In this document: positions 24,501 through 34,596 of the stretch, piece after piece
How positions within the stretch are numbered: position 1 is the first letter of the stretch
Layout: each line of letters begins with the position of its first letter
Assembly: GCA_029233925.1 (NCBI GenBank)
Contig: JARGOX010000008.1
Span: forward strand, 1 to 64,000
DNA: 64,000 nucleotides
Direction: 5' to 3'
Source of the DNA: Rhizobiaceae bacterium
Lineage (GTDB): Bacteria; Pseudomonadota; Alphaproteobacteria; Rhizobiales; Rhizobiaceae
Translations under genes and position numbers: made by a program
Notes under the pieces: model-generated
The model's database searches: none
The model's input: only the letters and a program-made list of their open reading frames with translations
What the model was told of the DNA's origin: nothing

Positions 24501-26558
24501 CTACCGAAGCGCAGCCTCAATATTCCCGCCATCCACTGTCAGCACGCCCGCCGTTGTGCGTTCCGCCATCACCAGGCTGAGGAAGGCGCTGGCGACGTGG
24601 TCTGCTGTGACTTCCTGTTTGAGCAGGTTGCCGGACATGTAGTCGCTCTCGCTGATGCCGCGGGCCTTGGAGCGGCTGGCGATCATGTCGTTGCTGAGCA
24701 GGCCGGAGCGGATGCGGTCGGCGTTGACGGCGCTGGAGCGCACGCCGATCTTGCCGTATTCAAGCGCATATTGCCGCGACAGGAACAGGGTTGCCGCCTT
24801 CGGCAGGCCGTAGGCGCCGAAATTCGCGCCGGGGTTGATCGCCTGTTTCGAGGTGTTGAACAGCAGGACCCCACCGGTCTGTTGTAGCTTGAACAGCCGC
24901 ACGGCATTTTGCGCGACGCTCTGGTGGGCAAAGAAATTCAGCTCGAAACTCTTGCGCAAAAGCGCATCGTCCAGCGTGCCGATTTCGCCCTGCCAGGCAG
25001 CACCCGCATTGGAGATGACGATATCGACCCCGCCAAATGCCTCTGCGGCCGCGTCGAAGGCGGCGCGCACGCTGGCCGGATCGGTGACGTCACAGGAAAC
25101 GCCCAGCGAACCATTGCCGATGGATTTGGCGACGGCTGCGGCTGCCGCTTCATCCAGATCAGCCACCACGACATGGGCGCCGGTTTCGGCCAGCAGCCTG
25201 GCGGTAGCCGCGCCGATGGCGCCGGCGCCGCCGGTGACCACCGCCACCTGTCCGGTCAGCGGCAGGATCTTGCGGCTTTTCAGCTTGGCCTGTTCGAGGG
25301 ACCAATATTCCAGCTTGAACAATTCTTCTGCCGACAGCGGATGGAAACGTCCGATGCTTTCGGCCTCGGTGACGGTTTTCATCCAGACTTCGGCAACATC
25401 GCCGGAAATGCTCGCCGTCTTGGCGGTGCGGCCAAAGCCGAAGACGCCAAGACCGGGCACGATGGCCATGCGGGGCATGGGATCGAGCATGGTACGTTCG
25501 ATATCGTCGGCGGCGTTGCAGCGCTCGAAATAGGCCTGGTATTTTTCCATATAGGCGTGGATGGCGGCGCGCGCCGCCTCGGCCCATGCGTCAATGCCGT
25601 CCGCCGGGCAGGGCGGCAGGATCACCGGCCAGTTCTTGACGTGCAGGGTCAGGTCCGGGGTGGTGACGCCGCGCAGGCCATAATCTTCCAGGTCCACGCC
25701 ATTGATGAAGTTCAGGACATTGTCGGATGTGCGGAAATCGCTGACGTAGCGGTTGAAATGGCCTTCACCCAGGGCCTCGGCAATGGCGCCGCGCAGGATG
25801 GGCGCCAGATCGCGGGCGCTGGCCGGATTGGCCGGCAGGTCCGTGCGTTGCGCGAATGTGTTGACGCCATTTGCGGCAATGTGGTTTTCCGCTTCGGTGA
25901 CAGCATTGATCATCCGCTCATAGGCTTCGCGCGCGCTGGCGCCGAAGGTGAAGATGCCGTGTTTGTCGAGGATCAGACCCTCGACGGAAGGATCGCGGTC
26001 ATAGACTTCGCCGGCCACTTTCGCCAGTTCGAAGCCCGGCGGGATATAGGGCACAAAGCCCATGCGGGTGCCGTAAACCTGTTTGATCAGCGCCTCGGAA
26101 TTTTCCTGATCGACCAGAGCAAGGACGGCTGTCGAATGGGTGTGATCGACGAACTTATGCGGCAGGAAGGCATGCAGCAATGTCTCGACCGACGGGTTGG
26201 GGGAGGCGGGATCCATCAGATTGGAGCGCTGCAGCGCCACCATGTCCTCGTCGCTGAGAGCATCGAGGTTGCGTGCCTTGAGCAGGGTCTCGAGCTTGAC
26301 GGCGGGCAGACCCTGCGGTTCGATGACCGACATGTCCCAGCCGCTGCCCTTGACGCACAGAACATCCCATTCTTCGCCGAGAATATCCTTGCTGCGGGTT
26401 TTGACGGAGGTATTGCCGCCGCCATGCAGGACCAATTGCGGATCACCGCCCAGAAGGCGGGTTGTATAGACACGCAGCGCCAGATCTTCGGAAATATTGT
26501 TCTTGCCATAGCGCGCGACGGTCGCTGCGGCTTCGGTGTCATTCCAGAGATTTTTCAT
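24501..26558 (-). CDS. bifunctional class II aldolase / short-chain dehydrogenase (RhaD family)
   Basis: A 685-aa fusion. Residues 1-430 are a class II (zinc) ketose-1-phosphate aldolase with HGGGNTSVK (45-53), E125, metal ligands H139 and H141 (VDHTHSTAVLAL) and H200 (LDKHGIFTFG). Residues 435-685 are a short-chain dehydrogenase with TGGAGAIG (442-449) and catalytic S570, Y583 and K587 (AYGLPKAA). Family members cleave rhamnulose-1-phosphate to DHAP and lactaldehyde and oxidise the aldehyde. Here no rhamnose isomerase or kinase is present; the neighbours are MtnK and MtnA, so 5-methylthioribulose- or 5-deoxyribulose-1-phosphate is a likelier substrate. That reassignment is inferred. ATG 26558 has GAGG upstream. 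Confidence 0.88.
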   Translation of the reverse strand: MKNLWNDTEAAATVARYGKNNISEDLALRVYTTRLLGGDPQLVLHGGGNTSVKTRSKDILGEEWDVLCVKGSGWDMSVIEPQGLPAVKLETLLKARNLDALSDEDMVALQRSNLMDPASPNPSVETLLHAFLPHKFVDHTHSTAVLALVDQENSEALIKQVYGTRMGFVPYIPPGFELAKVAGEVYDRDPSVEGLILDKHGIFTFGASAREAYERMINAVTEAENHIAANGVNTFAQRTDLPANPASARDLAPILRGAIAEALGEGHFNRYVSDFRTSDNVLNFINGVDLEDYGLRGVTTPDLTLHVKNWPVILPPCPADGIDAWAEAARAAIHAYMEKYQAYFERCNAADDIERTMLDPMPRMAIVPGLGVFGFGRTAKTASISGDVAEVWMKTVTEAESIGRFHPLSAEELFKLEYWSLEQAKLKSRKILPLTGQVAVVTGGAGAIGAATARLLAETGAHVVVADLDEAAAAAVAKSIGNGSLGVSCDVTDPASVRAAFDAAAEAFGGVDIVISNAGAAWQGEIGTLDDALLRKSFELNFFAHQSVAQNAVRLFKLQQTGGVLLFNTSKQAINPGANFGAYGLPKAATLFLSRQYALEYGKIGVRSSAVNADRIRSGLLSNDMIASRSKARGISESDYMSGNLLKQEVTADHVASAFLSLVMAERTTAGVLTVDGGNIEAALR

Positions 26559-26662
26559 TGCATGCCTCATATGATGGATAGTGGCCGCCTGTCGGCCCGC
26601 GGACAGATTGTTTTTAGTGGAAGTCTTGTTTTCTGACAATAGTCATATTTATCTGACAAAGG

Positions 26663-27106
26663 TCAAAAAATCACGCCCTTGCGCAGGATGAAGCAGCCAA
26701 AGGGGCGTTTCTCGCTGGTGGCCACCACCGCGAAGGCGCGCGCGGCCTGCTGGTAGAACATCTGGCGTTCCAGCGAGCCGACGTTGGCGCCATCCGGCAT
26801 GGCCGCCCGGATGATGTCAAAGGTCTCGTGATGCACGGCGCCCATCTCCTGCGGCGCACCATCGATTTCCATGCGCAGGGCGCAGGTCTCGGTGAAATGG
26901 TCGAGCGGCATGAGTTCGGTGATGATCTGTGCGGCCTGCGGCGATGAGAAGCCGGGCAAGCGGATCGGTTCCTGCATATTTGTTGTTTCCGCAATGGAGG
27001 CGGCAGGGAAATTGGCGTCGACAATCACCAATTCATCGCCATGGCCCATGGAAAGCAGGCAATGGATGAGATCTGGCGTGACCAGTGGATTAATACCTTT
27101 AAGCAT
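26663..27106 (-). CDS. RbsD/FucU family sugar mutarotase
   Basis: A 147-aa protein of the FucU/RbsD fold, which interconverts alpha and beta anomers of free sugars. The signature SMGHGDELVIVDANFP (about residues 19-34) contains the catalytic histidine and aspartate. Other family segments are MEIDGAPQEMGAVHHETFDI and FYQQAARAFAVVATSEKRPF. ATG 27106 is chosen over an earlier start because the protein then begins MLKGINPLVTPDLIH as in the family. It lies upstream of the aldolase gene in the same direction, and would prepare the imported sugar for an anomer-specific kinase. Confidence 0.9.
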   Translation of the reverse strand: MLKGINPLVTPDLIHCLLSMGHGDELVIVDANFPAASIAETTNMQEPIRLPGFSSPQAAQIITELMPLDHFTETCALRMEIDGAPQEMGAVHHETFDIIRAAMPDGANVGSLERQMFYQQAARAFAVVATSEKRPFGCFILRKGVIF

Positions 27107-27251
27107 GGAATGTGCCTTTGCTGTTCGTTGCGTCATTTGACTCTGTGCAACATCGTGGGGTTACTTTACATCTGCACTGCAGTTGGTTCCAGATACAATG
27201 GGCCAGCTGCAACGGGCAAGACAAAGAGCCGGGTAGCGGGAGAGGCAGACT
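27107..27251. promoter_or_regulatory. divergent promoter region fucU-like / SorC regulator
   Basis: This 145-bp spacer controls the aldolase operon (minus) and the regulator (plus). It contains TGTGCAA at 27144-27150 and an 11-bp palindrome, CTGCACTGCAG, at 27172-27182. TTGCACA, the reverse complement of the first word, also occurs in the mtnK/ABC spacer at 30720-30726, making it a candidate SorC half-site. Confidence 0.4.
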
Positions 27252-28223
27252 TTGGGTCAGGACAAAAAGAAGGCGCGGCGTCGCTACAGGCCGGATGAAC
27301 CGGTGGAAGACACGCTGCTGCGCGCCGCATGGCTCTATTATTACGAAAACCGCAACCAGAATGAAATCGCCGAGGAATTCGGCGTGTCCCGCGCCACGGT
27401 GGTCAATTACCTGCAGCAGGCCCGCGAGCGCGGTCTTGTCGAGATCCGCCTTGATTCCGCTGCCTTCAACCGCCAGCGCATTTCCGTTGAACTGTGCCGC
27501 AAATACGGCCTGCAGGAATCCGTCGTCATTCCGGGAACGGAAATTTCGCTGACCGGCGTTGCCGTCGGCGCGGCGCGGCGTTTGCCCGATCTGCTGGCGC
27601 CTGGCGACATTCTGGGTGTCGCCTGGGGCATGACAATCTTCAAACTGTCGGAAAGCCTGACGCCGCGCATCATCGACAATATGACCGTCGTGCAGATGGT
27701 TGGCTCGATGGCCAGTCCCTACGTCTTTGCGGCGGAAAGCTGCTCGACCAATATTGCCCACAAGCTGGGCGCCCGGGTCGCCAATTTTTATGCGCCGGCG
27801 CTGCTGTCGTCGACGCAGGCCGCGCATTTGTTGAAGCAGGAGCCGATCATCCGCTCGCAATTTGACTTGCTGGGCAGGATCAACAAGGCGCTGTTTGCCG
27901 TCGGGTCCTGCGAAGACAATAGCCATGTGGTCGAAAGCGGCATCGCTTCGCTTGCCGATCTGGAGGATTACAAGGCGCGCGGTGCGGTCGGCGTCATATG
28001 CGGGCGATTTATCGATGCCCGGGGCGAGCATATCGTCGGCCCGCTGGATGACCGGATGATCGGCATCACCCCGGATGCCCTGCGGGGCCTGTCGGTCGGC
28101 ATGCTGGTGTCCAACGGGTTTGACAAGGTTGCCGGCATGCATGCGGCCATGCTGGGCGGCTATGTCACCCACCTTGTCACCGATGCGCCGACGGCCCAGG
28201 CATTGCTCAATTTCGATCCCTGA
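27252..28223 (+). CDS. SorC family sugar-binding transcriptional regulator
   Basis: A 323-aa regulator. The N-terminal helix-turn-helix is YYYENRNQNEIAEEFGVSRA with TVVNYLQQARERGLVEIRL (about residues 31-67). The rest is a SorC/DeoR-type effector domain resembling phosphosugar isomerases (GDILGVAWGMTI, VQMVGSM, KALFAVGSCED). Such proteins usually respond to a phosphorylated sugar intermediate. TTG 27252 has GGGAGAGG upstream, and no better ATG lies near. It sits between the aldolase/mutarotase operon and the mtnA-mtnK operon and probably controls both, plus the ABC importer. Confidence 0.9.
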   Translation: MGQDKKKARRRYRPDEPVEDTLLRAAWLYYYENRNQNEIAEEFGVSRATVVNYLQQARERGLVEIRLDSAAFNRQRISVELCRKYGLQESVVIPGTEISLTGVAVGAARRLPDLLAPGDILGVAWGMTIFKLSESLTPRIIDNMTVVQMVGSMASPYVFAAESCSTNIAHKLGARVANFYAPALLSSTQAAHLLKQEPIIRSQFDLLGRINKALFAVGSCEDNSHVVESGIASLADLEDYKARGAVGVICGRFIDARGEHIVGPLDDRMIGITPDALRGLSVGMLVSNGFDKVAGMHAAMLGGYVTHLVTDAPTAQALLNFDP

Positions 28224-28255
28224 AAACATGATAAATCCGGGGCCGGCTGATCTTG

Positions 28256-28285
28256 ATCAGGCAGCCCTGAATCAGACGGCCCTGA
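28256..28285. repeat. 15-bp direct repeat at the mtnA 3' end
   Basis: ATCAGGCAGCCCTGA (28256-28270) and ATCAGACGGCCCTGA (28271-28285) lie in tandem across the mtnA stop codon. Confidence 0.7.
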
Positions 28286-29393
28286 CTTTATTCTGGCCCT
28301 TGGCCATTTCGGGGAACAATTTGGCCAGACCCGCCTGGCTTGCGCTGCAAACGCCGCGTTCCGTGATCAGTCCGGTCACCAGCCTGGATGGTGTGACATC
28401 AAAGGCAAAATTGGCGACCGGCGTTGTCTCGGGGCAGATGAGCACCTTGGTTTCAACGCCGTTCGCATCTTTTCCGGCCATCCAGGAAACCTCGCGGCCG
28501 TCGCGTTCCTCGATCGGAATTTCACGCACACCGTCATTGATCGTCCAGTCAACGGTCGAGGAGGGCAGCGCCACATAAAACGGCACGCCGTTGTCGCGTG
28601 CCGCCAGGGCTTTCAGATAGGTGCCGATCTTGTTGCAGACATCGCCGCTGGCGGTGGTCCTGTCGGTGCCGACAATGCACATATCCACTTTGCCATGCTG
28701 CATCAGGTGGCCGCCGGCATTGTCGACGATCAATGTGTGATCGACGCCATGACGTCCAAGCTCCCAGGAGGTCAGCGAGGCACCCTGGTTGCGCGGTCGT
28801 GTTTCATCCACCCACACATGCACCTCTATTCCCAGATCATGGGCCTGATAGATTGGTGAGGTGGCGGTGCCCCAATCGACAGTCGCCAGCCAGCCGGCGT
28901 TGCAATGGGTCAATATATTGACTGCTTCACCCGGTTCCTTGCGCGCCGCTATGGCCTTGATGAGTTCGAGCCCGTGGCTGCCGATGGCGTGGTTGACGGC
29001 GACATCGGCGTCACACAGCGTGGCCGCCAGCGCCCAGGCCGCATCGGCCCTTTGTTCGCTCGGCAGGGGCTGCAATAGACGCACCGTTTCATCCAGCGCC
29101 CATTTCAGGTTGATGGCTGTCGGGCGTGTGGCGTGCAGAACCGCATAGGCCTTCATCAGGCTCTCGTCGCTGGCATCCTGCCGCATGGCAATGGCCATAC
29201 CGTAGGCGGCGGTGGCGCCGATCAGCGGTGCACCGCGCACCCACATGTCGGCAATGGCCGTTGCCGCGTCGTCCAGGCTTTTCAGCTGGCGGGTGACAAA
29301 ACTGTGCGGCAAGCGGGTCTGGTCGATGATGCCGACGGTGCGTCCATCGGCCTCCGCCCAGATGGAACGGTAGGGTTTGCCATCGATCTTCAT
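28272..29393 (-). CDS. S-methyl-5-thioribose-1-phosphate isomerase MtnA
   Basis: A 373-aa aldose-ketose isomerase of the eIF2B-related family. It converts 5-methylthioribose-1-phosphate to 5-methylthioribulose-1-phosphate, and in some bacteria also handles 5-deoxyribose-1-phosphate. Catalytic residues are visible: C164 in [12 protein letters not shown] and D244 in [12 protein letters not shown]. The region [15 protein letters not shown] is also typical. ATG 29393 overlaps the mtnK stop (ATGA), so the genes are coupled. No mtnB, mtnC or mtnD follows, which argues against ordinary methionine salvage at this locus. Confidence 0.93.
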
Positions 29394-30679
29394 AGGGTTA
29401 CTCCCCGGTTCTTGATGGACCGAGCCAGATCGCAGAGCTGGCCGATGGATGAAAACTGGTGGCGAGAGACCAGCAATTCGCGGCCCATGGCAAGGGCATT
29501 GGCCTCGCATCTTGCGCGCTGGTCCGGATCCTCGATGGACTCCATGTCCTCGACATGGGCAAGGCCCACCAGACGGCGGATCATCTTGGTTCCGGCAAAG
29601 CCCACCGTGTCGACAAACAGGCTCCGCAAGGTCCGGGTCAGGGCCTGCTCGGACCCCATGGCATCGTCCTGGTCTTCAAACAGGCTGCGCGGAAACAAGA
29701 TGCCCGTGCGTTCGCTATGCCACAATTCGCGGAACCGGGCTTCAAAGGTGGCCCAGGTGTCAATGGCGGTTTGCAGCAGCCATTTCTGATAGGCGTCGCG
29801 GTCACCGGCCTGCTGGGCGTGGCCGGCTTGCGAGAAATAGGCAAGGAAGTAATTGGCAAACAGCGCGCCCGTGTCAAACCCCATGGGTCCGTAGAAGGAA
29901 AACTCCGGGTCGATCACCCGTGTATCGGCCTGGTTGACCATCACCGAACCGCTGTGAAAATCCGCATGCAGCAGCGATTGGGTGCAGGTGGTGAAGCGCT
30001 CCTTCATTACCTGCACGGCCACTTTGACATCGCGGTCCTGGCGCAATGTCTGAACCAGACGATCCAGCTGCGGGCTCGTCCACTGGTTCAGTTCCGCTTC
30101 CTGATAGGGCTCTGTAAAGACCAGGCTTTCGGTGATGTCACACAGCGCGACATTGTCTGAATAAAGCGCTACATCGGCTTTCTTGCGCGCGGTATCCATA
30201 TGCAGGTCGGAGGTGCGGAACAATGTTTCGGCCAGGAACAGGCCCAGATCATTGGCCAATCTGGGATAGGCAATGCCTTGAATGAAGCCTTTGCGCAGTA
30301 TGATATGGTCTGACAGATATTCCATTGCGATCAACGCATTGGCTTCGTCATAGGCATAGATCTCAGGCACCCGGGCGCCATCTGAACTGGCAGCGGCCTG
30401 GCGCGTCAGCGTGTGATATTCGAAATAGGACCTTTTCAGCGGCAACGGCCAGGATTCGCCGATCAGCCGGACGTAGGGCAATGCCTGTTTGATGATCAGC
30501 GAACCGGCAGGGCCCTCGACGATGAAGACGAGGTTCAGATTGCCATCACCGACTTCCACTGTCTTGAGTTGGTCCGGCGCGCCGCCAACCCTTGCAGCAA
30601 GCAAGGCATCGCTGGCAATATAGTTCTTGATGGTCTCAACCGTAAATGCTTCGTAACCCTCTGGCGTTTCTATGGCCAT
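29390..30679 (-). CDS. S-methyl-5-thioribose kinase MtnK
   Basis: A 429-aa kinase that phosphorylates the anomeric hydroxyl of 5-methylthioribose. Family segments are [20 protein letters not shown] (nucleotide-binding loop), the catalytic [11 protein letters not shown] and metal-binding [18 protein letters not shown]. The start ATG 30679 has GGGAGAGG upstream. It is the first gene of mtnK-mtnA and divergent from the sugar ABC importer. A strong promoter candidate (TTGACA, 17-bp spacer, TTTATG) reads toward it from 30802 to 30774. Confidence 0.94.
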
Positions 30680-30719
30680 TGCCTCTCCCGATCCCTTTAT
30701 CCGCTTTTCTGTCTACCCA

Positions 30720-30813
30720 TTGCACAATCATAAAGGGCTTGTGCGCAGCGCGGAAATCATATTTTGTTCCATCCATAAAAACATCAATTTGAATTATGTC
30801 AAGATATATTGAC
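30720..30813. promoter_or_regulatory. divergent promoter/operator region mtnK / sugar ABC importer
   Basis: On the minus strand TTGACA (30802-30797) and TTTATG (30779-30774) are 17 bp apart and would drive mtnKA. GTCAA-N6-TTGAC is a perfect inverted repeat at 30798-30813 overlapping that -35 box. TTGCACA (30720-30726) faces TGTGCGC (30740-30746) as a second inverted repeat just downstream of the expected mtnK start point. Either could be the operator of the SorC regulator. Confidence 0.5.
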
Positions 30814-30855
30814 TTTTGCCAGTTTGGCTGTAACGTCGGCCTCTGGGAGTGAAAA

Positions 30856-32457
30856 ATGAGTGCATCACCATTGCATCAGACTGCCGCCCACCCAGTGTTG
30901 CAGCCCAAAGGGGGGTTGCAACCCCAGGGGGTGTTGAAACTCGAGGGGGTGGAGAAATCCTTCGGCGCCAACAAGGTGCTGCAGGGTGTCGACCTGTCGA
31001 TATCCGCCGGCGAGATCGTGGTTCTGATGGGGGCCAATGGTGCGGGAAAATCCACCCTGGTCAAAATCATCGCCGGTGTGCATGATGCCGATACCGGCAG
31101 CATCGCGCTTGACGGCGTCGCCTTCAATCCCTCCTCACCGGCAGAAGCAATCCGCTCCGGTGTCTGTATCGTCCATCAGTCGATCAATGATGGTGTCGCG
31201 CCCGATCTCAGTGTCGCCCAGAACCTTTTGCTCGACCGTTTGTGCAACGGCGAAACCGGATTTTTCTTCACCCCCGGCAAAGCACGCAAAGAGGCGCAGA
31301 CCATTGCGGCGACGCTTGAACTGGATCTTGATCTCGACCGGCCGGTGCGTGAACTCAATCTTGCCGACCGCCAACTGGTATCCATATCGCGGGCCCTGGC
31401 GCAAAACCCCAAATTGCTGATCCTCGACGAGCCGACATCCTCCCTGTCGCAGCGCGAGGCCGAACGCCTCTTCACCATCGTCGAAGGTCTGCGGGCAAGC
31501 GGCGTGGCCATTCTGTATATCTCCCACCGCATGTCGGATATCCGCCGCCTGGCAGACCGGATCATTGCCCTGCGGGACGGCAGGATAACCGGCACATTCG
31601 AAAAGCCGCTGAACTATGAGGCCGCTGTCAACGCCATGCTGGGCCACGGCCTTCTGGCCACCCGCAATCAGGCAGGCGAACGGGGCGAGCATCTGTTCGA
31701 GGCACGCGATATTGTCTTGAAAAACGGCAGCGCACCCTTCTCCTTTGCGCTGGCGCGCGGTGAAATTGTCGCTCTGACCGGATTGGTCGGAACAGGAAAA
31801 AGCGAACTGGCCGAATGCATGTTCGGTGTCAGAAAGCCTCTGGCTGGCGCATTCGAACTGCTCGGCCAAACCTATGATCCGGCAAACCCCGGCGAGGCCA
31901 TTACGCAGGGCGTGTTCATGACGGCAAAGGACCGGGCCAATTCCTCCATCATCCCTGGCTTCAATATTTCCGGCAATCTCTCCTTGCCCTTCCTGACCAG
32001 TTTTTCGACCGCCGGAACGCTCAACCGGCTACGCGAGAACCAGTCGGCGCGCACCATGATCGACCAGTTGGATGTTGTCTGCCAGTCCGAACAGGATATG
32101 CTTTCCGCCCTTTCGGGAGGCAATCAGCAAAAGGTCGTCATCGCCCGCTGGCTGTCCCAGCCCAGCCGGGTGCTGGTGCTCGACGAGCCTTTCCAGGGCG
32201 TTGATATCAGGGCGCGCGGCGATATCGGTCGCAAATTGCGCGAGACGGCGCAGGAGCGCGCCACACTCATTCTCACCGCCGAGCTTGACGAGGCTCTGGA
32301 GGTGGCAGACCGTATTCTGGTCATGAGCAATCACACGATCGTCGGCGAACATCGCACAGCCGATCTGGACATGGACGCACTTCTGGCGCAGATATCCGGC
32401 GCATCCGTCATCGCACAACAGGCAGCATCCATCAGTGATGCCGCACACGGGAATTGA
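30856..32457 (+). CDS. sugar ABC transporter ATP-binding protein (double NBD, CUT2 type)
   Basis: A 533-aa ATPase with two fused nucleotide-binding domains as in RbsA/XylG. The first has Walker A GANGAGKST (about 59-67), signature-like LNLADRQLVSISRAL and Walker B LLILDEPTSSL. The second has a degenerate Walker A (GLVGTGKSE), SALSGGNQQKV and VLVLDEPFQG. Residues 15-32 are an in-frame 18-bp triplication (LQPKGG, LQPQGV, LKLEGV). ATG 30856 follows GGGAG. It energises the permease and binding protein encoded just downstream. Proposed cargo is 5-methylthioribose or a 5-deoxypentose, inferred from the divergent mtnKA genes. Confidence 0.9.
   Translation: MSASPLHQTAAHPVLQPKGGLQPQGVLKLEGVEKSFGANKVLQGVDLSISAGEIVVLMGANGAGKSTLVKIIAGVHDADTGSIALDGVAFNPSSPAEAIRSGVCIVHQSINDGVAPDLSVAQNLLLDRLCNGETGFFFTPGKARKEAQTIAATLELDLDLDRPVRELNLADRQLVSISRALAQNPKLLILDEPTSSLSQREAERLFTIVEGLRASGVAILYISHRMSDIRRLADRIIALRDGRITGTFEKPLNYEAAVNAMLGHGLLATRNQAGERGEHLFEARDIVLKNGSAPFSFALARGEIVALTGLVGTGKSELAECMFGVRKPLAGAFELLGQTYDPANPGEAITQGVFMTAKDRANSSIIPGFNISGNLSLPFLTSFSTAGTLNRLRENQSARTMIDQLDVVCQSEQDMLSALSGGNQQKVVIARWLSQPSRVLVLDEPFQGVDIRARGDIGRKLRETAQERATLILTAELDEALEVADRILVMSNHTIVGEHRTADLDMDALLAQISGASVIAQQAASISDAAHGN
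30898..30951 (+). repeat. 18-bp tandem repeat coding near the ABC ATPase N-terminus
   Basis: Three 18-bp units encode LQPKGG, LQPQGV and LKLEGV just before the ATPase domain begins (VEKSFGANKVL). Confidence 0.8.
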
Positions 32458-32460
32458 ACA

Positions 32461-33468
32461 ATGGCAAACACTGCAAAGGCACAAACACGCTTCAGGGATC
32501 TGGCCATTCGCTATGGCTTCCTGGTGTTGCTGCTGGTCATTGTCATCTTCTTCACGGTGATGGAACCGGCATTCATGTCGCTGCGCTCCATGGTGTTCAT
32601 CTTTCAGTCCGTTTCGATCACCGCTGTGCTTGCCCTCGGCGTGACCGCAACGCTTGTGGTGGACGGGTTCGACCTTTCCATCGGTTCCGTGGCGGCGTCA
32701 TCGATGATGGCTGCGTCCTACGCGATGGTTGTCTGGGGTCTGGGCTCGGTCGAGGCGGTGGCCCTGTGCCTGCTGCTGGGTCTGGGTGTCGGTCTGTTCA
32801 ACGGCCTGCTGGTGGTGGTGGCGCGCGTTCCGGACCTGCTGGCGACGCTCGGCACCATGTTCCTGCTGCTTGGCCTGCAGCTCATTCCAACCGCCGGTCG
32901 CTCCATTGCCAAGGGCATGATGATGCCCGACGGCTCGACATCAACCGGTGAATTTGACAAGTCCTTCCTGTTTTTGGGCAGGCACCGGCTGTGGGACATT
33001 GTGCCGGTCTCCGTCATCATCATGCTGGTGCTGGCGCTGGTCATCTGGTTCTTTCTCGAATTCACCCGCTGGGGCAGGGTCATGTATGCGATCGGCAGCA
33101 ATGAACTGGCCAGCCGCCTGGCCGGTGCGCCGGTCAGCCGCTACAAGATTGCCGCCTATATGATCTCCGGCGTCTCCGCATCGATCGGCGGCATTCTGCT
33201 TGCCGCACGGGTCGGCAGGGGCGATGTCAGTTCGGGCAACAACCTGCTTCTGGATGCGGTGGCCGCCGCCCTGATCGGCTTTGCCGTTCTGGGTGTTGCC
33301 AAGCCGAATGCCTTCGGAACGCTGGTTGGTGCGCTGTTTGTCGGTGTTCTTCTGCAGGGACTGACCATGATGAACGCGCCCTATTATGCGCAGGATTTCG
33401 TCAAGGGCAGCGTGCTGGTCGTGGCCCTCGTATTCACTTTCAGCCTCACAAGGGCTGCTCGTCGCTGA
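32461..33468 (+). CDS. sugar ABC transporter permease (CUT2/RbsC type)
   Basis: A 335-aa inner-membrane protein with eight to ten hydrophobic helices of the RbsC family. It has typical segments ALGVTATLVVDGFDLSIGSV (about 60-79) and YAIGSNELASRLAGAPVSRY. The start ATG 32461 is 3 bp after the ATPase stop, so the genes are in one operon. It probably homodimerises to form the channel. As the importer's neighbours are mtnK and mtnA, the transported sugar is likely a 5-modified ribose. Confidence 0.92.
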   Translation: MANTAKAQTRFRDLAIRYGFLVLLLVIVIFFTVMEPAFMSLRSMVFIFQSVSITAVLALGVTATLVVDGFDLSIGSVAASSMMAASYAMVVWGLGSVEAVALCLLLGLGVGLFNGLLVVVARVPDLLATLGTMFLLLGLQLIPTAGRSIAKGMMMPDGSTSTGEFDKSFLFLGRHRLWDIVPVSVIIMLVLALVIWFFLEFTRWGRVMYAIGSNELASRLAGAPVSRYKIAAYMISGVSASIGGILLAARVGRGDVSSGNNLLLDAVAAALIGFAVLGVAKPNAFGTLVGALFVGVLLQGLTMMNAPYYAQDFVKGSVLVVALVFTFSLTRAARR

Positions 33469-33540
33469 CGCGGTTTTCGCGTCGGATTTTGCCTGCCGGA
33501 AGCCTCATGCTCCGGTTCACTCACAGTGGGAGGATACAAA

Positions 33541-34596
33541 ATGCTAAACAGGATAACCCGGCGTATGATCGTCAAACTGGGACTTGCCGCCATGGCGACG
33601 ACCGGACTTGGTTTTGCCGCCCAGGCGGCAGACATGCCCAAACCATTCGACAAGCCCGGTGACGTCAAGATCGCGCTGGTGCGCTATCTTTCAACCGGTG
33701 ACTTCTTTCAGGCCTATCTGTCCGGTGTCGAACGTCAGTCCGCTGCGCTTGGCGTGGACCTGCGCATCTTCGATTCACGCCAGGATGCAGCCCTGCAGGC
33801 CGACATGGTCGATCAGGCCATTGCTCTGGGTGTGGACGGCATCGTTGTTCAGCATGGCCTGACGGAAGCCATGTCCGAGGCCGTGCAACGCGCCGTCGAT
33901 GCCGGCATCAAGGTGGTGGCTTTCGATGTGAATGTCGGAAACCCGGCCGTGCCGCAGATCGAGCAGAGCGACCAGCTTCTGGCGCAGCTCGCCCTCGAAC
34001 AGGCGATTAAGGACAATGGTGAAAGCTTCACCGCCGGTTACGTCTATGTGGCCGGTATCGCACCTCTGGATCGCCGCGATGAAAAATGGCGGGAATTCAA
34101 GGAAAAATATCCCGGCATCAATGAAGTGGCCCAGTTCGGGACGCTCGACAATCCGATCGCAAACTCGGTCGCCAACCAGGCCTCTGCCGTGTTGCGCGCC
34201 AATCCGACCATCAATGTGATGTTCGCTCCCTATGACGAATTTGCCAAGGGTGTGAAGATTGCCGTTGATGAGGCGGGTCTCAACAATGACGTCAAGATCT
34301 ACAGCGCCGACGTCTCTTCGTCCGATATTCAGGCGATGCGTGAAGGCGACAGCGCCTGGGTTGCCACGGCTGCCACCAATCCGGCGGTTGTCGGCGAGGT
34401 ATCCGTGCGTGCTCTTGCCATGTTGCTGGCAGGTGAAGATCCAGGCCACAATGTCATCGTGCCGCCAACCTTGATCACGCGTGACATGCTGATGGAACTC
34501 GACATCGAAAACATGGAACAGCTTTCGGCCAAACTGCCGCAGTTCGCCCATGCCGATGTTGCCGTTGCCGACTGGATGCCATTGCCGAGCCGCTGA
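33541..34596 (+). CDS. sugar ABC transporter substrate-binding protein (RbsB-like)
   Basis: A 351-aa periplasmic binding protein (Peripla_BP_4 type). The N-terminus MLNRITRRMIVKLGLAAMAT, cut after QAA near residue 30, is a signal peptide with paired arginines. Mature motifs include KIALVRYLSTGDFFQAYLSG, ALGVDGIVVQHG and VMFAPYDEFAKGVKIAVDEA. GGGAGG precedes ATG 33541. It is the third gene of the importer operon, closed by a terminator at 34659. Ligand identity is the key test of the pathway proposed for this cluster. Confidence 0.92.
   Translation: MLNRITRRMIVKLGLAAMATTGLGFAAQAADMPKPFDKPGDVKIALVRYLSTGDFFQAYLSGVERQSAALGVDLRIFDSRQDAALQADMVDQAIALGVDGIVVQHGLTEAMSEAVQRAVDAGIKVVAFDVNVGNPAVPQIEQSDQLLAQLALEQAIKDNGESFTAGYVYVAGIAPLDRRDEKWREFKEKYPGINEVAQFGTLDNPIANSVANQASAVLRANPTINVMFAPYDEFAKGVKIAVDEAGLNNDVKIYSADVSSSDIQAMREGDSAWVATAATNPAVVGEVSVRALAMLLAGEDPGHNVIVPPTLITRDMLMELDIENMEQLSAKLPQFAHADVAVADWMPLPSR

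Follow-up and report, generated by a model that had tools for sequence, protein, structure and literature searches.

What does a bacterium do with a 5-methylthioribose kinase and its partner isomerase when both are encoded beside a complete sugar importer? The question is raised by a 64,000-nucleotide stretch of DNA from a Rhizobiaceae bacterium (contig JARGOX010000008.1, positions 1–64,000, assembly GCA_029233925.1; hereafter the window), in which a cluster at about 24501–34596 encodes MtnK, MtnA, a class II aldolase, a mutarotase, a SorC-type regulator and a CUT2 ATP-binding cassette (ABC) transporter. A first-pass annotation had proposed that the importer feeds an exogenous sugar into the dihydroxyacetone phosphate (DHAP) shunt. 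Our analysis points the same way: the cluster is probably a catabolic DHAP shunt with a dedicated importer for 5-methylthioribose or 5-deoxyribose. This reading draws on the match of the binding protein to the structure 4ry8, on the linkage of importer and shunt genes in relatives, on the replacement of the aldolase by Ald2 homologues in some of them, and on an aldolase clade separate from the rhamnose enzymes. Genome-wide searches used the assembly, which is 99.38% complete in 43 contigs.

Genes of the cluster

The features of the cluster are as follows.

24501..26558, minus strand: fused class II aldolase and short-chain dehydrogenase (SDR), 685 aa; NF006192, two-domain AlphaFold2 (AF2) model; the open reading frame reaches a TTG at 26639
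26663..27136 (likely start 27106), minus strand: RbsD/FucU-type mutarotase; PF05025, 109 bits
27252..28223, plus strand: SorC/DeoR-type regulator, homologue of MtnR (YjhU); PF04198, 183 bits
28272..29393 (true start about 29393), minus strand: mtnA, (methylthio/deoxy)ribose-1-phosphate isomerase; TIGR00512, 407 bits (cut-off 279)
29390..30679, minus strand: mtnK, 5-methylthioribose/5-deoxyribose kinase; TIGR01767 (MTRK), 488 bits (cut-off 275)
30798..30813, no strand: palindrome GTCAAGATATATTGAC, of the form GTCAA-N6-TTGAC, putative operator for the SorC/MtnR-like regulator
30856..32457, plus strand: ATPase of the CUT2 importer, two ABC domains; PF00005 in two stretches, AraG/RbsA-like, below equivalog cut-offs
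32461..33468, plus strand: permease of the CUT2 importer; PF02653 (BPD_transp_2), 131 bits
33541..34596, plus strand: periplasmic sugar-binding protein, predicted 5-methylthioribose type; Peripla_BP_4, best match 4ry8

From left to right, the fusion and mutarotase genes lie on the minus strand, the SorC gene on the plus strand, and mtnA and mtnK on the minus strand with reading frames overlapping by 4 nt; the ATPase, permease and binding-protein genes then run divergently on the plus strand. Family models recovered mtnA, mtnK, the CUT2 importer, the mutarotase and the SorC regulator where the first-pass annotation had placed them. Its call of a class II ketose-1-phosphate aldolase was right as to the aldolase domain and overlooked the fused SDR: the protein scores 1062 bits against NF006192, named "bifunctional aldolase/short-chain dehydrogenase" by NCBIfam (cut-off 639). 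The mutarotase scores below the NCBIfam cut-offs for L-fucose mutarotase and D-ribose pyranase.

By their scores, MtnK and MtnA belong with the kinase and isomerase of the DHAP shunt, and the TIGR01767 match is the single one in the whole assembly. MtnK is 44% identical to E. coli MtnK, and MtnA is 64% identical to the MtnA of the E. coli shunt. The catalytic residues that had been listed as intact are all present: C164 and D244 of MtnA (invariant in 127/127 relatives, near-copies kept in the set), HADFHSG of MtnK, and H139, H141 and H200 of the aldolase. The MtnK motif, at residues 238–244, reads HGDLH[TSA]G in 130 of 133 relatives (near-copies again kept).

With a two-ABC-domain ATPase, a BPD_transp_2 permease and a Peripla_BP_4 binding protein, the importer has the composition of a CUT2 system. 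Among solved structures, the best sequence match of the binding protein is 4ry8 (E 3.9e-67, 230 bits), which is also the top fold match of its AF2 model (pLDDT 88; E 9.3e-33, 38% identity). The title of 4ry8 reads "5-methylthioribose transporter solute binding protein TLET_1677" (Thermotoga lettingae); the crystal presumably contains this ligand. The second match, Yersinia 5ulb, is described just as a sugar ABC transporter. From this resemblance in sequence and fold, the binding protein probably captures 5-methylthioribose, and probably 5-deoxyribose as well.

The aldolase–dehydrogenase fusion and its linkage to mtnK

The first-pass annotation had suggested looking for the same gene set in other Hyphomicrobiales. 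In a scan of genome contigs, the best 80 of 420 relatives were taken as loci; 67 of these exceed 15 kb, and the other 13 were too short for counting. The genes for MtnK, MtnA, the ATPase and the permease are all present in 67/67 long importer loci, so that the importer and mtnK/mtnA travel together throughout. The aldolase is the fusion in 53 of the long loci and an Ald2 homologue in one, with neither in 13; a mutarotase gene is present in 7. Most of the loci belong to Rhizobiaceae or other Hyphomicrobiales; some are from Rhodobacteraceae (including Marinosulfonomonas) and two from Granulosicoccus.

Surveys of whole genomes gave a similar association. Among 151 family genomes, MtnK exceeds its cut-off in 55 and NF006192 in 49; the fusion model is matched over cut-off in 42 of the 55 genomes with MtnK and in 7 of the 96 without (overlap tallied by hand; Fisher p 1.2e-18, relatedness ignored). 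Among 398 phylum genomes, MtnK exceeds its cut-off in 37 and a relative of the binding protein (E 1e-40 or better) occurs in 25. Judged by eye from two tables, all 12 of the closest binding proteins (>680 bits) lie within ~4 kb of mtnK. Seven genomes with more distant binding-protein relatives (160–175 bits) also have MtnK, at a distance below 2 kb in three. These three, G489, G424 and G445, belong to other Pseudomonadota, and MtnK-coupled import may therefore extend beyond this cluster type.

The strongest single argument for the role of the fusion comes from loci that lack it. In E. coli, the shunt is reported to be encoded as mtnK-mtnA-ald2-transporter, an operon whose transporter is putative, and to be controlled by the repressor MtnR (YjhU) (PMC12632272). 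Homologues of E. coli Ald2 (42–50% identical) are encoded in five fusion-less importer loci, directly downstream of mtnA in L075, L076, L079 and L200 and next to the regulator in L081. The best NCBIfam model for these five is L-fuculose-phosphate aldolase (197–255 bits), whose cut-off of 264 none reaches, and they score 67–79 bits against the MtnB model (cut-off 137). Four family genomes stand behind L075, L076, L079 and L081, and three of them have no NF006192 match over cut-off (the genome of L200 lay outside this search). This replacement by Ald2 homologues suggests that the fusion carries out the cleavage step, as the putative ketose-1-phosphate aldolase of the shunt. The class II aldolase domain of the fusion has the zinc histidines and the glutamate in place, but blastp gave no match between it and Ald2 at E 1e-3.

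The AF2 model of the fusion has two domains (pLDDT 86, pTM 0.84); its Foldseek matches include a class II aldolase domain (3m4r) as well as many SDRs. The zinc ligands His139, His141 and His200 (685-aa numbering) are kept in 116/116 aligned fusion homologues, 108 of them different. In a FastTree phylogeny, these 116 fall into three clades: a rhamnose-type clade with 14 members (support 100), an mtn clade with 92, the window fusion among them, and a third with 10. At the position aligned with Ald2's glutamate, Glu is found in 92/92 mtn-clade and 10/10 third-clade rows, whereas 13 of 14 rows of the rhamnose type have Asp. The SDR Ser/Tyr/Lys and an Asp after strand 2 are present in 92/92 mtn-clade rows; an Asp at this position favours NAD.

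The fetched locus contains mtnK for 86 of the 92 mtn-clade fusions. For four of the remaining six (in G019, G121, G068 and G066), the genome encodes an MtnK over cut-off at another place, and in one more, L212, mtnA adjoins the fusion. Thirteen of the 14 rhamnose-type loci contain a RhaI homologue (family assignment made in L233), the exception being L235, the long-branch row; no such homologue is present in the 20 other extra loci L210–L229 or in the window. The window fusion is 32–35% identical to the rhamnose-type relatives compared, and its 466 bits against the rhamnulose-aldolase model TIGR02632 (RhaD) fall below the cut-off of 568.

The third clade (L211, L213–L218 and L223) is mostly without mtnK nearby, although two identical third-clade rows (L036 and L189) derive from mtnK loci. 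Three third-clade loci were inspected, and these contain CUT1-type transporter genes (L213, L216) or a CUT2-type ATPase (L215). Apparently split relatives of the fusion, either aldolase-only (~430-aa match) or dehydrogenase-only, occur in the family genomes G085, G061, G139, G038, G067 and G074.

The assembly encodes three class II aldolase-domain genes, the fusion included. Against the MtnB model (TIGR03328, cut-off 137), the products of the other two reach 29.5 and 24.5 bits, and the best match to ARD (MtnD), at 21.6 bits, is under its cut-off of 27. On these two results canonical (universal) methionine salvage through MtnB, MtnC and MtnD was rejected, MtnC lying outside the search. Rhizobial RhaI (TIGR02629) has no match in the assembly, in a search that did not extend to other rhamnose isomerase types or to rhamnose kinases. 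The genes described earlier as missing are therefore missing as far as MtnB, ARD and rhizobial RhaI are concerned, with mtnC and rhamnose kinase outside the search. A rhamnose isomerase elsewhere in the genome, named earlier as a possible refutation, did not appear in its rhizobial form.

Other genes accompany the cluster in relatives. In 32 of the 67 long loci (L149, L170, L172, L184 and L137 among them), a divergent RuBisCO-like protein and a split transketolase/DXS-like pair are encoded beside mtnA or the importer, and such genes also occur at L064 9970–13041. The RuBisCO-like proteins score 46–76 bits against PF00016, and their best NCBIfam model is an MtnW-type enolase (167–197 bits, cut-off 409). 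Low-scoring RuBisCO matches were found in 12 of the 151 family genomes, 11 of the 12 within ~12 kb of mtnK; the assembly of the window has no match to a RuBisCO-like protein. Together with the transketolase, this protein is a possible further branch for 5-methylthioribulose-1-phosphate (5-methylthioribulose-1-P). Next after the sugar-binding gene of the window lies a gene for an amino-acid-type periplasmic binding protein (PF00497; 34662–35603, plus strand), also found in L129–L133 at 57–92% identity.

The regulator and a candidate operator

The SorC/DeoR-type regulator is 40% identical over 310 aa to E. coli YjhU/MtnR and, like it, is encoded beside DHAP-shunt genes. Between mtnK and the ATPase gene, GTCAAGATATATTGAC (30798–30813) is the sole exact GTCAA-N5/6-TTGAC palindrome in the 64-kb window; by eye, its right arm resembles a -35 element (TTGACT). 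Among 106 distinct regions between mtnK and the ATPase gene, 92 contain an N5 or N6 palindrome: 17/23 where the regulator is of the window type (42% identity or more), 60/65 where only a distant regulator is encoded and 15/18 where the fetched locus has none. The spacing differs among these groups. The N6 form occurs in 13/23, 1/65 and 6/18 regions, respectively, the N5 form in 4/23, 59/65 and 9/18, and an N12 form in 2/23, 39/65 and 3/18. Dinucleotide-preserving shuffles yielded each of N5, N6 and N12 in 1 of 3180; a count under slightly different grouping gave exact N6 in 13/23 and 0/64 regions, and in 0 of 5300 shuffles.

The spacer letters vary while the arms are constant (23 spacers in the N5 group), and 106 of 113 such sites across 134 other mtnK loci fall in the mtnK/ATPase gap (near-copies kept). 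That the spacing follows regulator type suggests that the SorC regulator binds the GTCAA-N5/6-TTGAC palindrome. An operator common to both promoters of the window was considered and rejected, as the fucU/sorC region contains no N6 palindrome within one mismatch and no exact N5. Nor does the E. coli shunt region contain an exact GTCAA-N5/6-TTGAC or, with one mismatch allowed, an N6 form; the recognition site of E. coli MtnR is stated to be not known (PMC12632272).

Proposed pathway, competing explanations and known systems

Gene families, linkage, the Ald2 replacement, clade membership and the conservation of the palindrome are computational results; from them we infer the ligand, every enzymatic step, the direction of the dehydrogenase and the pairing of regulator and site, as follows. 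The binding protein would capture external 5-methylthioribose, probably 5-deoxyribose too, for import by the CUT2 ABC transporter, and the mutarotase would speed anomer exchange. MtnK would phosphorylate C1, and the isomerase MtnA would convert the resulting sugar phosphate to 5-methylthioribulose-1-P or 5-deoxyribulose-1-P. Cleavage of this ketose-1-P by the aldolase domain would give DHAP together with 2-methylthioacetaldehyde (or acetaldehyde). The SDR domain most likely uses NAD+ to oxidise the released aldehyde, yielding (methylthio)acetate or acetate, by analogy with RhaEW, a bifunctional L-rhamnulose-1-P aldolase/L-lactaldehyde dehydrogenase that oxidises lactaldehyde with NAD+ (PMC3870299). 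When the substrate is absent, the SorC protein would repress the divergent mtnK and importer promoters via GTCAA-N6-TTGAC.

A more detailed version of this pathway is put forward tentatively, at somewhat less than an even chance of being correct. The cluster would represent another form of the DHAP shunt, in which a fusion from outside the RhaEW clade cleaves imported 5-methylthioribulose-1-P and immediately oxidises the sulfur aldehyde to (methylthio)acetate; carbon would be gained with no reactive aldehyde set free. An MtnR-like repressor acting at a GTCAA-N5/6-TTGAC operator would control it, and a RuBisCO-like/split-transketolase branch would be attached in 32 of the 67 loci.

Several observations weigh against an importer-fed shunt as described here. 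The ligand of 4ry8 is taken from its title. Binding proteins scoring 440–491 bits occur in six phylum genomes, none of which has an MtnK match, so the wider binding-protein family is not confined to methylthioribose. Thirteen of the long loci have neither aldolase type, and seven family genomes have the fusion over cut-off and no MtnK over cut-off. Ald2 homologue and fusion are not strictly exclusive: G048, one of the four family genomes noted above, has a third-clade fusion elsewhere, and in L219 the two lie 6.5 kb apart. Within the tree, the branch joining the mtn clade has a FastTree support of 86%, and the glutamate shared with Ald2 is no marker of mtn function, since third-clade fusions carry it too. 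In G019 and G121, the fusion is accompanied by a SorC gene with 79% identity to that of the window, and the pair lies ~34 and ~24 kb, respectively, from mtnK. On the regulatory side, the palindrome is absent from the fucU/sorC promoter, the N12 spacing in 39 of the 65 distant-regulator regions allows more than one site geometry, and the candidate site proposed for E. coli differs (CAAAT-N9-ATTTG; PMC12632272). Finally, the cell may have an internal source of substrate. None of its seven PNP-family proteins passes the MtnN (TIGR01704) or methylthioadenosine (MTA) phosphorylase (TIGR01694) cut-off, and one passes TIGR01705, a putative MTA/S-adenosylhomocysteine nucleosidase (340 bits, cut-off 152), which makes an internal source of methylthioribose or deoxyribose possible. 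This match led us to abandon the view that the cell is unable to produce its own methylthioribose.

The same nucleosidase would suit a cluster whose enzymes mainly clear internally formed 5-deoxyribose or 5-methylthioribose and whose importer recaptures leaked sugar, much as a Bacillus thuringiensis pathway is reported to prevent inhibitory build-up of 5-deoxyribose (PMC12632272, PMC10986504). We regard this as unlikely, given a complete CUT2 importer in every long locus, a regulator of the repressor type together with a conserved palindrome in the importer promoter, and the reported regulation of the E. coli homologue as a carbon-source pathway (PMC12632272). Equally unlikely, in our estimate, is use of the imported sugar for sulfur, with the methylthio group passing through methanethiol to methionine. 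The DHAP shunt does serve sulfur salvage in Rhodospirillum rubrum and Rhodopseudomonas palustris (PMC10986504, PMC12632272), but that route reduces the aldehyde to methylthioethanol (PMC10986504), whereas the fused SDR resembles the NAD+-linked oxidising partner in RhaEW (PMC3870299). No methylthio-cleaving family appears among the matches listed for the nine cluster-region proteins, the rest of the genome being outside that search.

Rhamnose and fucose loci typically include CUT2 importers and mutarotases. This, with the relatedness of the fusion to rhamnose-type fusions, would suit degradation of L-rhamnose or another 6-deoxy sugar with the mtn genes as bystanders. The linkage to mtnK and mtnA and the Ald2 replacement make this very improbable. 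Rhamnose catabolism was itself rejected on the sub-threshold TIGR02632 score, the missing rhizobial RhaI and the separate fusion clade. The chance is slimmer still that the importer takes up autoinducer-2 or another furanose: the ATPase matches LsrA (321 bits) and the regulator LsrR (119 bits) only distantly and below cut-offs, the binding protein scores just 32 bits against LsrB compared with 230 against 4ry8, and no Lsr kinase or thiolase was found among the nine cluster-region proteins scanned.

If the DHAP shunt with a dedicated importer is correct, rhizobia and marine relatives consume environmental 5-methylthioribose, a by-product of S-adenosylmethionine use, through a committed importer, and the fused enzyme avoids the release of a reactive aldehyde. 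A function would be gained for a family that NCBIfam names by its domains alone, and a candidate operator for MtnR-type regulators. The cluster also points to the unexplained RuBisCO-like/transketolase pair beside the same genes in relatives.

Growth on an exogenous substrate of this kind has precedent. The first-pass annotation saw the known shunt chiefly as a means of recycling by-products from within the cell, a view that is out of date, as E. coli is reported to grow on exogenous 5-deoxyribose and 5'-deoxynucleosides via the DHAP shunt (PMC10986504, PMC12632272). The window shares with the E. coli shunt MtnK, MtnA, an MtnR-like regulator, a putative class II aldolase step and a transporter in the cluster. 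In E. coli, Ald2 is a separate protein of 213 aa and the sugar transporter is of the GRP family; in the window, the aldolase is fused to a dehydrogenase, the transporter is a CUT2 ABC importer, a mutarotase is also encoded and the putative operator differs. The drdK-drdI-drdA clusters for 5-deoxyribose disposal likewise combine kinase, isomerase and aldolase. Some were described in 2018 with sugar transporters, one of them with a fucose-mutarotase homologue, and exogenous salvage was suggested (PMC6079011), so the present layout is a variant rather than a new idea. The drd aldolase is fuculose-1-P-aldolase-like, and the available part of that paper mentions no fused dehydrogenase.

Like RhaEW, the window protein joins an aldolase and a dehydrogenase in one chain, and it shares the zinc histidines and SDR residues with the rhamnose-type relatives compared. 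RhaEW is reported to yield neither observable DHAP nor lactate without NAD+ and to be always encoded in rha loci (PMC3870299); the window fusion, in contrast, falls in a separate clade and is linked to mtnK rather than rhaI. TLET_1677, the protein in 4ry8, is the best relative of the binding protein in both sequence and fold, but comes from a distant phylum. A search of open-licence literature, a coverage that leaves out most subscription papers, found no description of the fusion as a DHAP-shunt enzyme. The pathway itself is known; what is new here is the fused enzyme, a CUT2 importer of methylthioribose type as its fixed partner, and the conserved palindrome.

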